A stretch of DNA of 42,596 nt from an uncultured Flavobacteriaceae bacterium (lineage in GTDB: Bacteria; Bacteroidota; Bacteroidia; Flavobacteriales; Flavobacteriaceae): NCBI GenBank assembly GCA_938088195.1, contig CALKEO010000029.1:1-42596 (forward strand), given 5' to 3'. A program made the position numbers and the translations under genes. Positions 20,250-27,388 of the stretch are shown here, piece after piece. The notes below the pieces were generated by a model that was given only the letters and a program-made list of their open reading frames with translations, made no database searches and had not been told where the DNA came from. Every line of letters starts with the position of its first letter. The stretch's first letter is position 1.

Positions 20250-21533
20250 ATGAGTAACAAGGCTAAATTAAAAATAAACGACTCTGAAATTGAATTAAAT
20301 TTGATTGAAGGGTCCGAACAGGAAATTGGAATTGATATTAGTTCTTTAAGACTCAAATCTAATATTATCACTTTAGATCCTGGCTACAAAAATACAGGTT
20401 CTTGTAAAAGCAGTATAACTTTTTTAGATGGTGAAAAGGGAATTCTTAGATATAGAGGATATTCTATTGAAGAATTAGCCAATAAAGCAGATTTTTTAGA
20501 AGTTGCCTATTTATTAATTTTTGGAGAATTACCAAATAAACAACAATTAGAAAAACTTTCAAATGATATTAAAGAAAGATCAATCATTGATGAAGATTTA
20601 AGGATAATTCTTAACAGCTTTCCTAAATCCGCTCATCCAATGGGTATACTATCATCACTAACAAGTGGTTTAGTAGCATTTGACCCGTCAGCTGTTAATA
20701 TTGACGATGAGGAGGATATGTATGATGCTATTCTTAATTTATTAGCAAAAATACCAGTATTAGTTGCATGGGTATATAGAAGAAGAAATGGTCTTCCACT
20801 TGAATATGGTGATACGTCACTTGCTTATGTTGAAAATCTTGCTAAGATGATGTTTCAACGACCTAATAAAGAATACGTACAAAATGATACTATTGTTAGC
20901 GCATTAAATAAATTATTGATCTTACATGCAGATCATGAACAAAATTGCTCTACATCAACAGTTAGAATTGTTGGATCTTCATATGCCGGATTATTTGCTT
21001 CTGTTGCCGCTGGGATATCCGCTCTTTGGGGAAGGTTACATGGTGGAGCTAACCAAGCTGTTATAGAAATGCTTGAAGAAATACAAAAAGACGGTGGTGA
21101 TACAAAAAAATTCATGTCTAAGGCTAAGGATAAGTCAGATCCGTTTAGATTAATGGGTTTTGGTCACAGGGTTTATAAAAATTTTGATCCAAGAGCTAAA
21201 ATAATTAAAGTTGAAGCTGATAAAGTGTTGAACGAATTAGGTATTAATGACCCAATTTTAGATATAGCCAAAGGGTTAGAGAAAGAAGCCCTTATTGACA
21301 ACTACTTTATTGAAAGAAAACTTTATCCAAATGTTGATTTTTATTCAGGTATTATATATAAAGCTCTTGAAATACCAAGCGAAATGTTTACTGTTATGTT
21401 TGCTTTAGGAAGACTCCCAGGATGGGTTGCTCATTGGCGTGAAATGAGAATTAATAAAGAACCAATCGGTAGACCTAGACAAATTTATACTGGAGAAAAA
21501 CTAAGAAAATTTTCTGAAATTAATAATCGCTAG
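20250..21533 (+). CDS. gltA: Citrate synthase
   Basis: The 427-residue protein joins acetyl-CoA and oxaloacetate at the entry of the TCA cycle. The catalytic triad of the family is visible: H264 in GRLHGGANQAVIEML, H306 in MGFGHRVYKNFDPRAK, and D363 in YPNVDFYSGIIYKAL. Length and the N-terminal extension resemble the E. coli-type enzyme rather than the short type. The start follows a promoter-like box by 8 nt. Two amidinohydrolase-fold genes follow at once and may share its transcript. Confidence 0.97.
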   Translation: MSNKAKLKINDSEIELNLIEGSEQEIGIDISSLRLKSNIITLDPGYKNTGSCKSSITFLDGEKGILRYRGYSIEELANKADFLEVAYLLIFGELPNKQQLEKLSNDIKERSIIDEDLRIILNSFPKSAHPMGILSSLTSGLVAFDPSAVNIDDEEDMYDAILNLLAKIPVLVAWVYRRRNGLPLEYGDTSLAYVENLAKMMFQRPNKEYVQNDTIVSALNKLLILHADHEQNCSTSTVRIVGSSYAGLFASVAAGISALWGRLHGGANQAVIEMLEEIQKDGGDTKKFMSKAKDKSDPFRLMGFGHRVYKNFDPRAKIIKVEADKVLNELGINDPILDIAKGLEKEALIDNYFIERKLYPNVDFYSGIIYKALEIPSEMFTVMFALGRLPGWVAHWREMRINKEPIGRPRQIYTGEKLRKFSEINNR

Positions 21534-21547
21534 TTTTGTCAGTCAAA

Positions 21548-22456
21548 ATGAATTTCTCTGTTAATGATGAAACTTCAAAACTTATTTCTGTAATAATCGG
21601 TATAGCCAATGATATGGGAGAAACACCCAATATAGATGATTTATACGACCCAAAATCAATTCAGAACTTAAAATTGGGAAATTATCCTTTAGAATCTAAC
21701 ATGGTAATTGAACTTGAAAATTTTTCTAATATTTTAATAAAGCATGGAGTTAATGTTTTTAGACCAAGTAATATTAAAAAGTGTAATCAAATTTTTACAA
21801 GAGATGTTGGTTTTGTAATAAACAACTTTTTTTTTAAATCTAATATTCTTCCAAAAAGAGACAAAGAATATTTTGGAATCAAATCAATTGTTGAAAATTT
21901 TAATGGACAAGTGGTGAATATTCCCGAAAAAATACATGTTGAGGGTGGAGATGTTATTTCAACAGATAATAATATTTTTATAGGGTTTTACGATAAAATC
22001 GATTACAGCGAGTTATATACTGCTCGTACAAATAAGTATGCAATTAGTTATTTTAAAAATTTTTTTCCAAAAAAAAACATTAAAGGTTTTCACTTAAAAA
22101 AATCAAATTTAGATCCTCTAAAAAATGTACTTCATTTAGATTGTTGTTTACAATTAATTGGGAGAAATAAAGCAATTGTATACCCAGATGCTTTTACTTA
22201 TAAGGAGGACTATAAATGGATACAAGCTTTTTTTGGAATTGAAAATATTTTTGAGATTACAAATAAAGAAATGTATGAAATGAACAGCAATATTCTTTCA
22301 ATTAGTCCTGAAATAGTTGTTTCTGACCCTAAATTTATAAGACTTAATAATTGGTTAGAATCTAATGATATTTTAGTTGAAAAAATTTCATTTAATGAAG
22401 TTTCAAAACAAGAAGGGTTGTTTAGATGTTCTTCGCTTCCTTTAACAAGAGGTTAA
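21548..22456 (+). CDS. Dimethylarginine dimethylaminohydrolase-like enzyme (amidinotransferase fold)
   Basis: I choose the ATG at 21548 (302 residues, MNFSVNDETSKLISVIIGIA) over an in-frame TTG 12 nt earlier. The protein belongs to the guanidino-group modifying superfamily: FTRD at 83-86, EGGD at 132-135, the catalytic His in HLDCC at 196-200, and the nucleophile Cys at 294 in FRCSSLPLTRG. DDAH enzymes split N-methylated arginines into citrulline and a methylamine. The exact substrate cannot be fixed from the sequence, and arginine deiminase-like or related activity is possible. It lies 14 nt after gltA and 3 nt before a CtlX-like gene. Confidence 0.85.
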   Translation: MNFSVNDETSKLISVIIGIANDMGETPNIDDLYDPKSIQNLKLGNYPLESNMVIELENFSNILIKHGVNVFRPSNIKKCNQIFTRDVGFVINNFFFKSNILPKRDKEYFGIKSIVENFNGQVVNIPEKIHVEGGDVISTDNNIFIGFYDKIDYSELYTARTNKYAISYFKNFFPKKNIKGFHLKKSNLDPLKNVLHLDCCLQLIGRNKAIVYPDAFTYKEDYKWIQAFFGIENIFEITNKEMYEMNSNILSISPEIVVSDPKFIRLNNWLESNDILVEKISFNEVSKQEGLFRCSSLPLTRG

Positions 22457-22459
22457 GTT

Positions 22460-23383
22460 ATGGGTATTAATTTGCATTCTATTTTAATGGTTAGACCTTC
22501 AAAGTTTCGAAGAAATTTACAAACAGTAGAAAGTAATTATTTTCAGAACGATACTCTATATCTAAATTCTGATACAATTTCAAAAAATGCAATTAAAGAG
22601 TTCGATGAATTAGTTTTAAAAATAAAATCATGTGGATTTAAAGTTTTTGTTTTTCAGGATGACGGAAACAATGACACCCCTGACTCCATATATCCAAATA
22701 ATTGGATTACTTTCCATAATGATAAAAGAATTGCAATATATCCAATGTATGCTAAAAACAGAAGGTTGGAAAGAAATGAAAATGTTCTAAATTTTTTAGA
22801 ACATAATAATGTCTACTTTAATCATATTTTTGATTATAGTAGTGCTGAAAAAAAGCAAATGTTTTTGGAGGGTACGGGAAGTATGGTTCTAGATAGGATA
22901 AATAAAAAGGCATATTGCTCAATTTCCAAAAGAACAAACGAAGATCTCATATTTGAATTTTGCAATGATTTTAAATACTTGCCAATAATATTTAATTCAT
23001 TTCAAAATCATGAAAACAAGAGAAAACCAATTTATCATACAAATGTAATGATGAGTGTTGCAAAGGATTATGTTATTGTTTGTTTAGAAGCAATTGATGA
23101 TAAAAATGAAAGAAAAAAGTTAATTAGTAGTTTTGAGGATGATAAAAAAGAAATCATTTCAATATCTGAAAATCAGTTAAAGCTATTTGTTGGTAATGTT
23201 ATTGAACTTAGAAAGAATGAAAAAAGTTTTTTGTTCATGAGTGATACAGCCCATCGTTCTTTAAAAAACAATCAATTGCAAAGATTGACTAATTATTCAA
23301 AAATAATTAGTAGTCCGATTGATACTATTGAAAAATGTGGAGGTGGGGGAGTTAGATGTATGATTGCAGAAATATTTAATTAG
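22460..23383 (+). CDS. ctlX: CtlX-like citrulline hydrolase (amidinotransferase fold)
   Basis: The 307-residue protein matches the CtlX branch of the amidinotransferase family. It starts SILMVRPSKFRRN and has IYPNNWITFH near 78-86, a catalytic acid region LEGTGSMVLDR (136-146), H193 in YHTNVMMSV, and the nucleophile C300 in GGGGVRCMIAEIF at the very C-terminus. CtlX is linked to citrulline use in Francisella, with proposed products ornithine, CO2 and ammonia. It follows the DDAH-like gene by 3 nt, so they form one unit. Its 3' end overlaps the convergent next gene by 8 bp. Confidence 0.85.
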   Translation: MGINLHSILMVRPSKFRRNLQTVESNYFQNDTLYLNSDTISKNAIKEFDELVLKIKSCGFKVFVFQDDGNNDTPDSIYPNNWITFHNDKRIAIYPMYAKNRRLERNENVLNFLEHNNVYFNHIFDYSSAEKKQMFLEGTGSMVLDRINKKAYCSISKRTNEDLIFEFCNDFKYLPIIFNSFQNHENKRKPIYHTNVMMSVAKDYVIVCLEAIDDKNERKKLISSFEDDKKEIISISENQLKLFVGNVIELRKNEKSFLFMSDTAHRSLKNNQLQRLTNYSKIISSPIDTIEKCGGGGVRCMIAEIFN

Positions 23384-23777
23384 AATTTTTAATATTCAGT
23401 ATTTTTTTAAAATATTGATGATCCTTTTTTTTATCTACTAAAACTTTAATAAAATATTTATCAATATAAATTGAATAGACATTAGATTCCCCTTTAAATA
23501 ATTTTAATTTATAAAATGGTATTATTAATCCATAGGTTTCTAATAAAGATCTAAATCTGATAATTAAACCATTTTTTCTAATTTCAATGTTACAACAATT
23601 GTCATTATTGTCTAAGTCTAGAAGGTTTTGAATCTCAGAACTTGAGGCTGTGATTTTTAAGCTAGAGGACCCAATTCCGTTCATCTTTATTCTTTCAAAT
23701 AAAGTGTATGTATCTCCTATCATTTTTAAAATTTCATTTTTAATTTTTGGATTATTATAAGAAATATTTCTAAGCAT
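23376..23777 (-). CDS. Conserved-looking hypothetical protein
   Basis: The 133-residue protein has no signal peptide or membrane segment and I cannot assign a family. It is Lys-, Ile- and Asn-rich with mixed alpha/beta character. Distinctive stretches are EILKMIGDTYTLFERIKMNG, GSSSLKITASSSEIQNLLDL and RFRSLLETYGLIIPFYKLKL. I have an impression of similar proteins in other flavobacteria but no function. It is divergent from argS (85 bp apart). On the minus strand TACCTTTA, one base short of a -7 box, lies about 20 nt before its start. It overlaps the end of ctlX by 8 bp. Confidence 0.75.
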   Translation of the reverse strand: MLRNISYNNPKIKNEILKMIGDTYTLFERIKMNGIGSSSLKITASSSEIQNLLDLDNNDNCCNIEIRKNGLIIRFRSLLETYGLIIPFYKLKLFKGESNVYSIYIDKYFIKVLVDKKKDHQYFKKILNIKNSN

Positions 23778-25690: not shown

Positions 25691-26407
25691 CTATTTTGAA
25701 ACAGCAAGATTATAAACTACAAGACCGAAACCAATTTTGTTAATTGAGTCACCGATGTTGTAAATAACTTCCATGTTAGGTACAAAAGCATCAATAAAAT
25801 CATACCATCCGTCAGTTCCTGCCATGTAACCAATAGGGTAAATAGCCCAACCAATTATTACAAATAAACACAAAGTGTTATGAGCAGATTGAACTGCGCC
25901 ACCCGCAGAAGCTGCAAGTTTAGCTAACTCACCAAATTTGATCATGTAGACAATGTAGAAATATGCTAAACCAGAGAATAATCCCCACATAGCAGCGTTT
26001 CCTAAGCCTGCTTCACCAACATATCCAGTAACAAGCATAATTGTAGAAGCTACTACTAAATGCTTTAAATGTTTGGTTGTTGCACCAGCACCTTTTAAAA
26101 TAAGATAGAATTCAACACACATTAATGGTACAGTAAGTATCCAGTCAACATATCTGAAAACTACAGTATTGTCGCCAGCAGCATGAGCATCTCTCATGTA
26201 CATGTAATGAACTGCAGCAATAAAAGTAATTAATCCAGAGACTAAAATAGAAGTTCTCCATTTAGCGTCAACTGAATTCATGGATAAGAAGAAAAAAGCA
26301 GATGCTGCCATCATTGCCATTGTACCTATCCAAAAGGTAATACCTACTAAATCGTCACCAGCAGGAGTATCACCAAAAAAATACATTAAGTTTAAAAAAT
26401 TTTCCAT
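25691..26407 (-). CDS. Proteorhodopsin, predicted green-absorbing light-driven proton pump
   Basis: From the ATG at 26407 the protein has 238 residues and seven hydrophobic helices. An in-frame ATG at 26455 is rejected because that extension would cover the -7 promoter box. In the RYVDWILTVPLMCVEF block of helix C, D88 is the proton acceptor, T92 the middle residue and E99 the donor, the DTE pattern of proton pumps. M96 is the spectral tuning position; Leu or Met there goes with green absorption. H67 (the partner of the acceptor) and Schiff-base lysine K224 in NKIGFGLVVYNLA are present. It sits in the inner membrane and needs retinal, supplied by the divergent blh gene. Confidence 0.97.
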   Translation of the reverse strand: MENFLNLMYFFGDTPAGDDLVGITFWIGTMAMMAASAFFFLSMNSVDAKWRTSILVSGLITFIAAVHYMYMRDAHAAGDNTVVFRYVDWILTVPLMCVEFYLILKGAGATTKHLKHLVVASTIMLVTGYVGEAGLGNAAMWGLFSGLAYFYIVYMIKFGELAKLAASAGGAVQSAHNTLCLFVIIGWAIYPIGYMAGTDGWYDFIDAFVPNMEVIYNIGDSINKIGFGLVVYNLAVSK

Positions 26408-26438
26408 AATTATAATAATTAATTGTTTTGTTAATATC

Positions 26439-26446
26439 CAAATATA
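26439..26446 (-). promoter_or_regulatory. Putative -7 promoter box of proteorhodopsin
   Basis: Read on the minus strand, TATATTTG matches TAnnTTTG exactly and ends 31 nt before the start codon at 26407. No TTTG is found 19 nt upstream; that position is occupied by the -7 box of blh. Confidence 0.6.
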
Positions 26447-26466
26447 TAAAAACAATTCTTATTCGC

Positions 26467-26494: not shown

Positions 26495-27388
26495 ATGCTG
26501 TTAAAATCTCAAATTTTTAACAACTTTTCATTCAAATTAATACTTATTCCCTCAATTTTTTGTCTAATTCTTAGTTTTTTTTTGAGTGAATTTGCTCAGA
26601 ACTTATTGATTTTCAGTGGAATTTTATCTTTTGGTATAATTCATGGAGCTAATGACATATTATTATTAAAAAAAAACACAAGAAATAATGATGACTCATC
26701 ACTTAGCTTATTAATAAAGTATTTGGCTATGGTTATTTCTTTTGGAATCTTTTTTTATTTTATTCCGTTTTACGCACTAATTTTTTTTGTTTTATTTAGT
26801 TCGTATCATTTTGGTGAGCACCAATGGACAATGTTTGACAACAATGGATTAAAGAAATTGAATTTTTTTTACTTTAGCTATGGTCTTTTTTTGTTTTCAT
26901 TACTTTTTTGGATTCATAGCTCTCAAGTAAGTATAGTGATAGAAGACATTACAAAATTTCAAATTCAATTATTTTTTTATGATTATTTATTAATTATTTC
27001 TTTTATATTAATGTTTTTTAGTGGTTTTTTTAATTTTAAATATATCTTAAATCAATTATTTATTCAATTGATACTGATTACTTTACTTTCTTTCATTTTT
27101 TACTCAACAAAATTAATTTATGCTTTTGGTATTTATTTTGTTTTTTGGCATAGTATACCTTCGATTTTAGAACAATCAAGATATATATATGGAAAATCAG
27201 ATTTTAAATCAATTATTTCATATTTAAAAAATGCTTTTGTGTATTGGTTAATCTCTTTGATTGGATTATTTATCATTTATTTTTTCATGAAAGATTTTCA
27301 AAATCTTTTAATAAGTATTTTCTTTTCATTCTTAGCTGCTATTACTTTCCCTCATGCAGTTATAATATTTAGAATAAAAAGAAATTAA
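26495..27388 (+). CDS. blh: Blh/Brp-type beta-carotene 15,15'-dioxygenase
   Basis: The 297-residue, highly hydrophobic protein belongs to the Brp/Blh family that cleaves beta-carotene into two retinal molecules. The iron-binding histidine motifs are in order: IIHGAND (H50), SYHFGEHQW (H105 and H109), FWHSIPSI (H219) and FPHAVI (H287). About eight membrane helices fill the rest. It is divergent from proteorhodopsin across 87 bp, the standard partnership for making functional holo-pump. Carotenoid synthesis genes are not in the window and must lie elsewhere. ffh follows after 51 bp with its own promoter. Confidence 0.94.
   Translation: MLLKSQIFNNFSFKLILIPSIFCLILSFFLSEFAQNLLIFSGILSFGIIHGANDILLLKKNTRNNDDSSLSLLIKYLAMVISFGIFFYFIPFYALIFFVLFSSYHFGEHQWTMFDNNGLKKLNFFYFSYGLFLFSLLFWIHSSQVSIVIEDITKFQIQLFFYDYLLIISFILMFFSGFFNFKYILNQLFIQLILITLLSFIFYSTKLIYAFGIYFVFWHSIPSILEQSRYIYGKSDFKSIISYLKNAFVYWLISLIGLFIIYFFMKDFQNLLISIFFSFLAAITFPHAVIIFRIKRN

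Follow-up and report, generated by a model that had tools for sequence, protein, structure and literature searches.

In bacteria, the citrulline made by arginine deiminase usually passes to ornithine carbamoyltransferase and carbamate kinase, and a helical insertion brings the deiminase chain to about 400 amino acids. The cyanobacterial ArgZ and AgrE proteins instead convert arginine into ornithine, ammonia and CO2 in one protein with one active site. In the ArgZ study, Asn71 is said to be the residue that sets ArgZ apart. Dimethylargininase (DDAH) carries a Lys that lets the dimethylamino group fit, where arginine deiminase has an Asp that stabilises the guanidino group, according to the available text of PMC11659421.

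CtlX was described by Price et al. 2022 (PMC9007349). The available portions of that paper mark CtlX by a PNN and an HTN signature and present it as a putative citrullinase, for which the paper itself asks for biochemical proof. In the same portions, ctlX mutants show a defect on ornithine as well, argGH had a role in the use of citrulline by one strain, one ctlX mutant phenotype may be polar, ocd or aruG is often a neighbour, and the citrullinase Ctu is assigned to an unrelated family (PF00795). Two other systems, likened here by description from parts of their reports, join an enzyme that attacks arginine to one that hydrolyses citrulline, namely the arginine-like deiminases and AguB/Ctu citrullinase of Francisella (PMC9251427), and the roc system of B. 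subtilis, which has arginase and RocB, a probable citrullinase (PMC4813224).

The pair described here consists of a gene for a compact arginine-deiminase-like enzyme, called gene 1, followed by ctlX. It probably constitutes a split, ATP-free arginine dihydrolase, in which gene 1 would convert arginine into citrulline and CtlX would convert citrulline into ornithine. This reading draws on the order of the genes, on their family, residues and model folds, on their co-occurrence, on the substitution of other arginine hydrolases for gene 1, and on the absence of any sign of the classical finishing enzymes. The components are of known kinds, and the novelty lies in a deiminase of compact form that is constantly paired with CtlX. 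A description of the pair was not found in the open-licence literature, including the available portions of PMC9007349, PMC12366310, PMC6273216, PMC8826395, PMC11659421, PMC9251427 and PMC4813224. Among these publications, as far as their available text extends, CtlX function is treated in PMC9007349 only.

If the reading is true, it corrects a misleading DDAH-like interpretation of the usual gltA neighbour in this bacterial family, gives these bacteria an ATP-free route for drawing ammonia from arginine, and adds neighbourhood evidence that the putative CtlX finishes arginine breakdown.

The gene 1-ctlX locus

The window, which is the whole stretch of DNA that was analysed, comprises 42,596 nucleotides of an uncultured Flavobacteriaceae bacterium (contig CALKEO010000029.1, assembly GCA_938088195.1). 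The assembly is 1.53 Mb long, 80% complete and divided into 70 contigs. Its closest named relatives are metagenome bins labelled Flavobacteriaceae or Cryomorphaceae, and from the relatives' names and a remark in the original prediction we infer a marine habitat for them. The locus has the order carA-eno-gltA-gene 1-ctlX-(133-aa gene, opposite strand)-argS, where the identities of gltA, eno, carA and argS come from reading of their translations. The features are as follows.

20250 to 21533, forward strand: gltA, citrate synthase (open reading frame and translation); the usual upstream neighbour of the pair, with no role assigned to it there
21548 to 22456, forward strand: gene 1, compact arginine-deiminase-like enzyme, 302 aa (open reading frame, profiles, alignments, fold model)
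22460 to 23383, forward strand: ctlX, putative citrulline hydrolase, 307 aa (NF046062 score; PNN and HTN signature as in the available text of PMC9007349)
21794 to 21805, forward strand: FTRD codons of gene 1, residues 83-86, with Asp86 a predicted guanidinium binder (alignments A1, A3 and A5)
22130 to 22141, forward strand: LHLD codons of gene 1, residues 195-198, with His196 predicted to be catalytic and Asp198 the second guanidinium-binding Asp (alignments)
22427 to 22429, forward strand: codon of the catalytic Cys294 of gene 1 (invariant in A1 and in 38/38 distinct sequences)
22694 to 22702, forward strand: PNN codons of CtlX, residues 79-81, where Asn replaces the first substrate Asp (alignments)
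23036 to 23044, forward strand: HTN codons of CtlX, residues 193-195, with the catalytic His and an Asn replacing the second substrate Asp (alignments)
23357 to 23359, forward strand: codon of the catalytic Cys300 of CtlX (invariant in A2)

The two genes are separated by 3 nt. The length of gene 1 is counted from an ATG, and an alternative TTG at 21536 would add four amino acids. The original prediction of two intact, adjacent genes with a guanidino-modifying fold, directly after gltA, is borne out by coordinates, Pfam matches and models. It had also asked how constant the place beside gltA is, and of the 38 distinct loci where enough upstream sequence is available, 30 have gltA no more than 300 nt upstream of gene 1; gltA was not found beside the pair in locus L092 of genome G022. 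The neighbours of CtlX here are gene 1, gltA and argS, and neither ocd nor aruG is among them. The locus thus differs from those in the available text of PMC9007349, with an arginine-hydrolysing enzyme in place of ornithine cyclodeaminase or aruG.

Family scores, model folds and substrate residues

CtlX scores 396.6 bits against NF046062 (cut-off 334), and its identity agrees with what had been predicted for the second gene; like the protein of Price et al. (PMC9007349, in its available portions), it has PNN and HTN. It also matches PF19420, a model of eukaryotic DDAH, at 8e-102. A sequence search of solved structures gave no match and a profile search gave chance-like matches only, so that its fold was settled by fold search. 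AlphaFold2 models of gene 1 and CtlX are both confident (mean pLDDT 92.1 and 92.2), and both match guanidino-modifying enzymes with Z about 30. The CtlX model is closest to ArgZ (Z 29.9), followed by DDAH (27.2), succinylarginine dihydrolase (27.1) and arginine deiminase (23.7).

Gene 1 matches two general Pfam models above their cut-offs, those for arginine deiminase (3.4e-10, 39.9 bits) and PF19420 (2.8e-7, 30.5 bits), and lies far below every curated NCBIfam cut-off, including those of ArcA (TIGR01078 / NF002381; 41.2 bits with a cut-off of 489.1, and 38.1 with 414), of arginine dihydrolase (NF052232; 20.8 with 450) and of dimethylargininase (NF045660; 19.1 with 340). The long deiminases that adjoin CtlX in other genomes likewise fall below the two ArcA cut-offs (235.9 and 249.9 bits for L065, and 379.3 and 379.4 for L091). 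All 20 members of A1 match the deiminase and arginine dihydrolase models and two match CtlX; bit scores are shown for the first member only. Among solved structures, the gene 1 profile finds arginine deiminase first (8.9e-11), then DDAH-1 (6.5e-8) and AgrE (6.7e-6). A scan of genome contigs with gene 1 gave three loci.

Gene 1 shares with ArcA (PF02274) the fold, the Cys/His/Glu residues, both substrate Asp residues and a C-terminal RC..(L/M)PL.R motif. However, the long enzymes seen here have about 410 to 550 aa, whereas gene 1 has 302; it has no helical insertion, and it shows gaps where the long enzymes have additional columns in A3 and A5. A 69-protein tree places gene 1 in one clade of 37 rows (support 100/98), separate from ArcA-like sequences, and long deiminases, ArgZ-like proteins and CtlX also form one clade each, with long branches that leave the deep order unsure. 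Gene 1 represents a compact subfamily without a name.

The fold of gene 1 points to several enzymes at once. Its model matches arginine deiminase with Z 30.4 (2.5 A over 278 residues), ArgZ with Z 30.3, amidinotransferases with Z 29.8 and DDAH with Z 27.4 or less; rows within 1 Z are taken as tied, and therefore the fold leaves deiminase, ArgZ and amidinotransferase unranked. One alternative is that gene 1 passes the amidino group from arginine on to some acceptor, with release of ornithine. Amidinotransferases also use arginine, they occupy the first seven ranks by Foldseek alone (TMq 0.71 to 0.78), and they are compatible with the residue rule given below, which was built without amidinotransferase residues. 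By sequence the resemblance is weak, at 3.3e-4 for StrB1 and 3.2e-3 for the human enzyme compared with the value for arginine deiminase given above; no acceptor pathway was recognised among the genes neighbouring the pair; and amidino transfer would leave unexplained both the replacement of gene 1 by long deiminases and its strict pairing with a citrulline enzyme. We therefore regard an amidinotransferase as very improbable.

The catalytic Cys and His had been predicted in both proteins, and they are present: C294, H196 and E132 are invariant in gene 1 (A1, 20 rows), as are C300, H193 and E137 in CtlX (A2, 21 rows). In A1, the motifs F-x-R-D86, E132-G-G-D, R160-T-N and H196-L-D198, together with C294, have no exceptions. 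R104 and R160, at positions that we take to be those of the substrate-carboxylate-binding Arg residues of deiminases and DDAH, are conserved throughout the 135 distinct sequences of gene 1, long deiminases, ArgZ-like proteins, dimethylargininase and CtlX.

The two substrate positions separate the families. Counts are of distinct sequences, 38 for gene 1 (47 rows with repeats) and 77 for CtlX (88 rows with repeats), and were taken from A5 and from motifs, because in the wide residue alignment the FTRD column is wrongly placed for the rows of CtlX and of ArgZ-like proteins. The first position is F-x-R-D in gene 1 (38/38) and in long deiminases (14/14), F-x-A-N in ArgZ-like proteins (5/5, as FTAN or FCAN) and P-N-N in CtlX (76/77). 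The second is Asp in gene 1 (38/38), long deiminases (14/14) and ArgZ-like proteins (5/5), Lys in the Pseudomonas dimethylargininase L121 (1/1, the sole one compared) and Asn in CtlX (77/77, within HTN in 76/77). YHLDTC served as the selection motif for four of the five ArgZ-like rows, which makes the Asp that they have at position 198 a result of the selection; the PDB chains of ArgZ and AgrE carry the same motif independently of that picking. Both PNN and HTN occur in the window's CtlX and in all 21 rows of A2, and the other motif patterns appear elsewhere in some CtlX rows (F-x-A-N in 10/77, H-L/I-D in 2/77).

Gene 1 thus has the Cys/His/Glu and both guanidinium-binding Asp residues of ArcA in all of its distinct sequences. 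These residues let gene 1 be read as a deiminase that would stop at citrulline, and those of CtlX as an enzyme for a neutral ureido group. If true, the pattern amounts to a testable residue rule for the superfamily, with Asp/Asp in deiminases, Asp/Lys in dimethylargininases, Asn/Asp in dihydrolases and Asn/Asn in citrullinases.

The original prediction had called gene 1 DDAH-like and had proposed that it acts on mono- or dimethylarginine to give citrulline plus a methylamine, with CtlX then forming ornithine. The order of this two-step route, citrulline first and then hydrolysis to ornithine, is retained here; its substrate is not, and arginine takes the place of methylarginine because of Asp198, the model scores and the substitution by arginase described below. 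Salvage of methylarginine would be consistent with the PF19420 match of gene 1, with the second rank of DDAH-1 chains among its solved relatives, with weak matches of 15 to 17 of the 20 A1 members to dimethylargininase models (best 8.5e-10), and with the fold, chemistry and compact size that gene 1 shares with DDAH (NF045658-NF045660; L121 has 254 aa). However, PF19420 is unspecific, since CtlX and the ArgZ-like protein L124 (83.1 bits) score above the dimethylargininase L121 (34.4 bits). The NF045660 score is far below its cut-off, and the other two dimethylargininase models, NF045658 and NF045659, do not list gene 1 at E up to 0.1. All 38 distinct sequences have Asp198 where the one dimethylargininase compared has Lys, a difference whose meaning comes from the available text of PMC11659421. 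Also, arginase can occupy the place of gene 1, which fits arginine and not methylarginine. Methylarginine salvage is thus highly unlikely. As a label for gene 1 itself, DDAH was discarded on the Lys/Asp position and the model scores.

Pairing with CtlX and replacement of gene 1

Two samples were surveyed, a close sample of 21 genomes (the window's own and 20 relatives) and a phylum sample of 296 Bacteroidota genomes. Gene 1 was counted as present at 459 bits or more; the next matches (G215, 301 bits; G230, 159; G310, 100; G171, 58) are all in genomes without CtlX, and the rest are below 47 bits. CtlX was counted at E up to 0.001, which places 73 of its 74 genomes above the cut-off and G181 below it. 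Long deiminases were counted at E up to 1e-20 with A4, and arginase at 190 bits or more, which gives 82 genomes, including a split match in G183 (without CtlX) and several slightly below the curated cut-off. The presence and absence counts ignore shared ancestry.

In the close sample, gene 1 and CtlX are found together in the same 16 genomes, and neither is found in the other five. In the phylum sample, CtlX is present in 74 genomes and gene 1 in 35, all 35 of which have CtlX. Across both samples, two genomes being common to them, all 49 distinct genomes with gene 1 also have CtlX, which answers the question of co-occurrence raised by the original prediction. In the phylum sample, CtlX follows gene 1 on the same strand at a distance of no more than 1 kb at 32 of 37 gene 1 loci, and at the other five it is 7 to 93 kb away. 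The agreement among the 16 of 21 relatives and the closeness at 32 of 37 loci indicate that the pairing is not due to chance.

That prediction had taken relatives that regularly have only one of the two genes as evidence against it, and such relatives exist for one gene and not for the other. Gene 1 without CtlX was seen in neither sample. Genomes with CtlX and no gene 1 are frequent (39 of 74), and each of these 39 has another arginine-hydrolysing enzyme: a long arginine deiminase is present in 24 and an arginase in 20, five of them having both, so that 15 have arginase and no long deiminase. For comparison, deiminase or arginase occurs in 130 of the 222 genomes without CtlX. Among the 35 genomes with gene 1, none has a long deiminase and three have arginase.

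The replacements are also visible in gene order. A long deiminase adjoins CtlX at 13 of 39 loci without gene 1 (12 upstream, one downstream) and is one open reading frame away at another, so that in other families the long enzyme substitutes for gene 1 beside CtlX. Within the window's own family, arginase is found between gltA and CtlX at two loci, L053 and L054 (genomes G048 and G076). The arginase of G076 lies directly between the two genes and scores 222.2 bits, slightly below the cut-off of 227.6; that of G048 scores 233.8 bits and has one opposite-strand open reading frame intervening. The CtlX proteins of G048 and G076 are on separate, starred branches within the CtlX associated with gene 1. 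These replacements within a family are stronger evidence than the counts, which are uncorrected for ancestry. A third arginase neighbour of CtlX, at L073, belongs to another family.

ArgZ-like proteins, which might carry out both steps in one protein, are found in 70 of the 296 genomes, all below the NF052232 cut-off, and none shares a genome with CtlX. Gene 1 could itself be a dihydrolase of the ArgZ type that forms ornithine from arginine alone, and CtlX would then handle citrulline from other sources. The tie of ArgZ with arginine deiminase in the fold search is in keeping with this, as are the NF052232 matches of all 20 A1 members (best 9.6e-15), although the window's gene 1 reaches only the 20.8 of 450 bits given above. 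In alignments with the PDB chains of ArgZ, both wild-type and N71S mutant, Asn71 maps to the first-position motif, where it corresponds to Asp86 of gene 1, so that the Asn of the ArgZ type is absent. The separation of ArgZ-like proteins (70 genomes) from CtlX (74 genomes), while gene 1 never occurs without CtlX, also argues against a dihydrolase, but this argument is weak alone and follows deep phylogeny. Overall, such a dihydrolase is very unlikely. The pair would resemble ArgZ/AgrE in fold and in its predicted overall reaction, from arginine to ornithine, ammonia and CO2, and would differ in using two proteins, with Asp/Asp and then Asn/Asn, where ArgZ/AgrE has Asn71 and an Asp in one site.

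Genome G022, which belongs to a different family, may have acquired the pair. Its gene 1 nests within the gene 1 clade of the window's family, with seven rows of that family (100/99). Its CtlX is on a long branch outside the CtlX of the window's family, and grouping it with the CtlX of its own family is disfavoured (two-tree AU test, p 0.019). Joint transfer of the pair into G022 is therefore possible on these sequences. The balance tips, if only somewhat, towards a broader proposal: that gene 1 defines a family, as yet unnamed, of compact deiminases that act on arginine and work only with CtlX, as a split dihydrolase with two related active sites, that different Bacteroidota have gene 1, long deiminase or arginase in the position next to CtlX, and that gene 1 and ctlX may have passed between families together.

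Fate of citrulline and ornithine

With gene 1 as a compact arginine deiminase, Cys294 would attack the guanidinium carbon of free L-arginine while Asp86 and Asp198 hold the guanidinium group. Ammonia would leave, and water activated by His196 and Glu132 would free citrulline. CtlX shares the catalytic residues and has Asn at both Asp positions; it would take up the neutral ureido group of citrulline and hydrolyse it to ornithine and carbamate, the latter giving ammonia and CO2. We infer both reactions and the handing over of citrulline from the first enzyme to the second.

Alternatively, the citrulline could follow the classical arginine deiminase pathway through ornithine carbamoyltransferase and carbamate kinase to ATP, with CtlX as a bystander. 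This is the usual bacterial fate of such citrulline, but the gene content contradicts it as far as the models see. Among the 59 CtlX genomes with gene 1 (35) or a long deiminase (24), a set that leaves out the 15 CtlX genomes with arginase only, none has carbamate kinase (E up to 1e-20) and none has ornithine carbamoyltransferase above the cut-off. In contrast, among 21 sampled deiminase genomes without CtlX, two have carbamate kinase and four have ornithine carbamoyltransferase. Weaker carbamoyltransferase matches occur in all 80 of these genomes (59 and 21), and only the window's own was identified. We consider the classical pathway hardly credible here.

The carbamoyltransferase of the window's genome lies in an arginine-synthesis cluster on contig 66. 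It is an N-acetylornithine carbamoyltransferase (295.1 bits, cut-off 288), and the cluster also contains argH (327 bits, cut-off 279.5), argG, argD and argE as best matches below their cut-offs, and argC, proC and argB as identified from reading of translations. Because arginine synthesis in this genome proceeds through N-acylated intermediates, free ornithine is not expected in it, and the ornithine formed by CtlX would probably leave through ornithine aminotransferase. A match to this enzyme above the cut-off was not found in the window's own, 80% complete genome; it is present in 17 of the 21 genomes, including the nearest relative, where it is split over two contigs. In the relatives, it is sited away from the pair.

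The combination of arginase with CtlX is outside the two-step scheme, and in the 15 CtlX genomes that have arginase but neither gene 1 nor a long deiminase, citrulline must come from elsewhere. By analogy, the roc precedent of B. subtilis suggests a separate supply of citrulline in these genomes.

ArgZ-like proteins and a relative of gene 1

Proteins of approximately 300 amino acids that resemble ArgZ are found in 70 of the 296 Bacteroidota genomes sampled (for example, L124 103-999). Within these 70 genomes, the ArgZ-like proteins score at most 219 bits, versus a cut-off of 450 bits for arginine dihydrolase, and 62 of the genomes also have a match to the long arginine deiminase profile. The F-x-A-N motif, which is the ArgZ-like first-substrate motif, is present in all five ArgZ-like proteins inspected.

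Genome G215 lacks CtlX, the putative citrulline hydrolase, and carries a relative of gene 1, the compact arginine-deiminase-like gene of the window:

L093 5270-6139 (G215), shorter gene 1 relative, 289 amino acids, 301 bits

With 56.1 bits, this protein is nearer to the dimethylargininase models than gene 1 is. Despite this score, it retains H-L-D, the motif of the catalytic His and second substrate Asp.

Surroundings of ctlX in other loci

Five loci (L055-L059, family f10) contain mutually clustering proteins of 462-464 amino acids near ctlX; the genes adjoin in four loci and are separated by one ORF in the fifth. The L056 protein, the sole one of the five scanned, is arginine-decarboxylase-like (NF003763, 165.1 bits versus a cut-off of 369). 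At L025 5575-6490 (G001), gene 1 is interrupted, which may be an assembly error; ctlX is intact there.

Genes downstream of ctlX

The end of ctlX is overlapped, tail to tail, by an ORF:

23376-23777, minus strand, 133-amino-acid gene

Searches of Pfam and NCBIfam returned no matches to this gene. Among the genus's 13 loci, a count that includes one contig twice, L021 lacks it and the other 12 carry it at the same position.

Throughout L021-L029, which belong to the window's genus, argS adjoins ffh, with neither a rhodopsin nor a Brp/Blh beta-carotene dioxygenase gene between them. The argS-ffh interval of the window holds both, arranged back to back:

25691-26455, minus strand, rhodopsin gene (PF01036, 135.6 bits)
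26495-27388, plus strand, Brp/Blh beta-carotene dioxygenase gene (TIGR03753, 164.5 bits)
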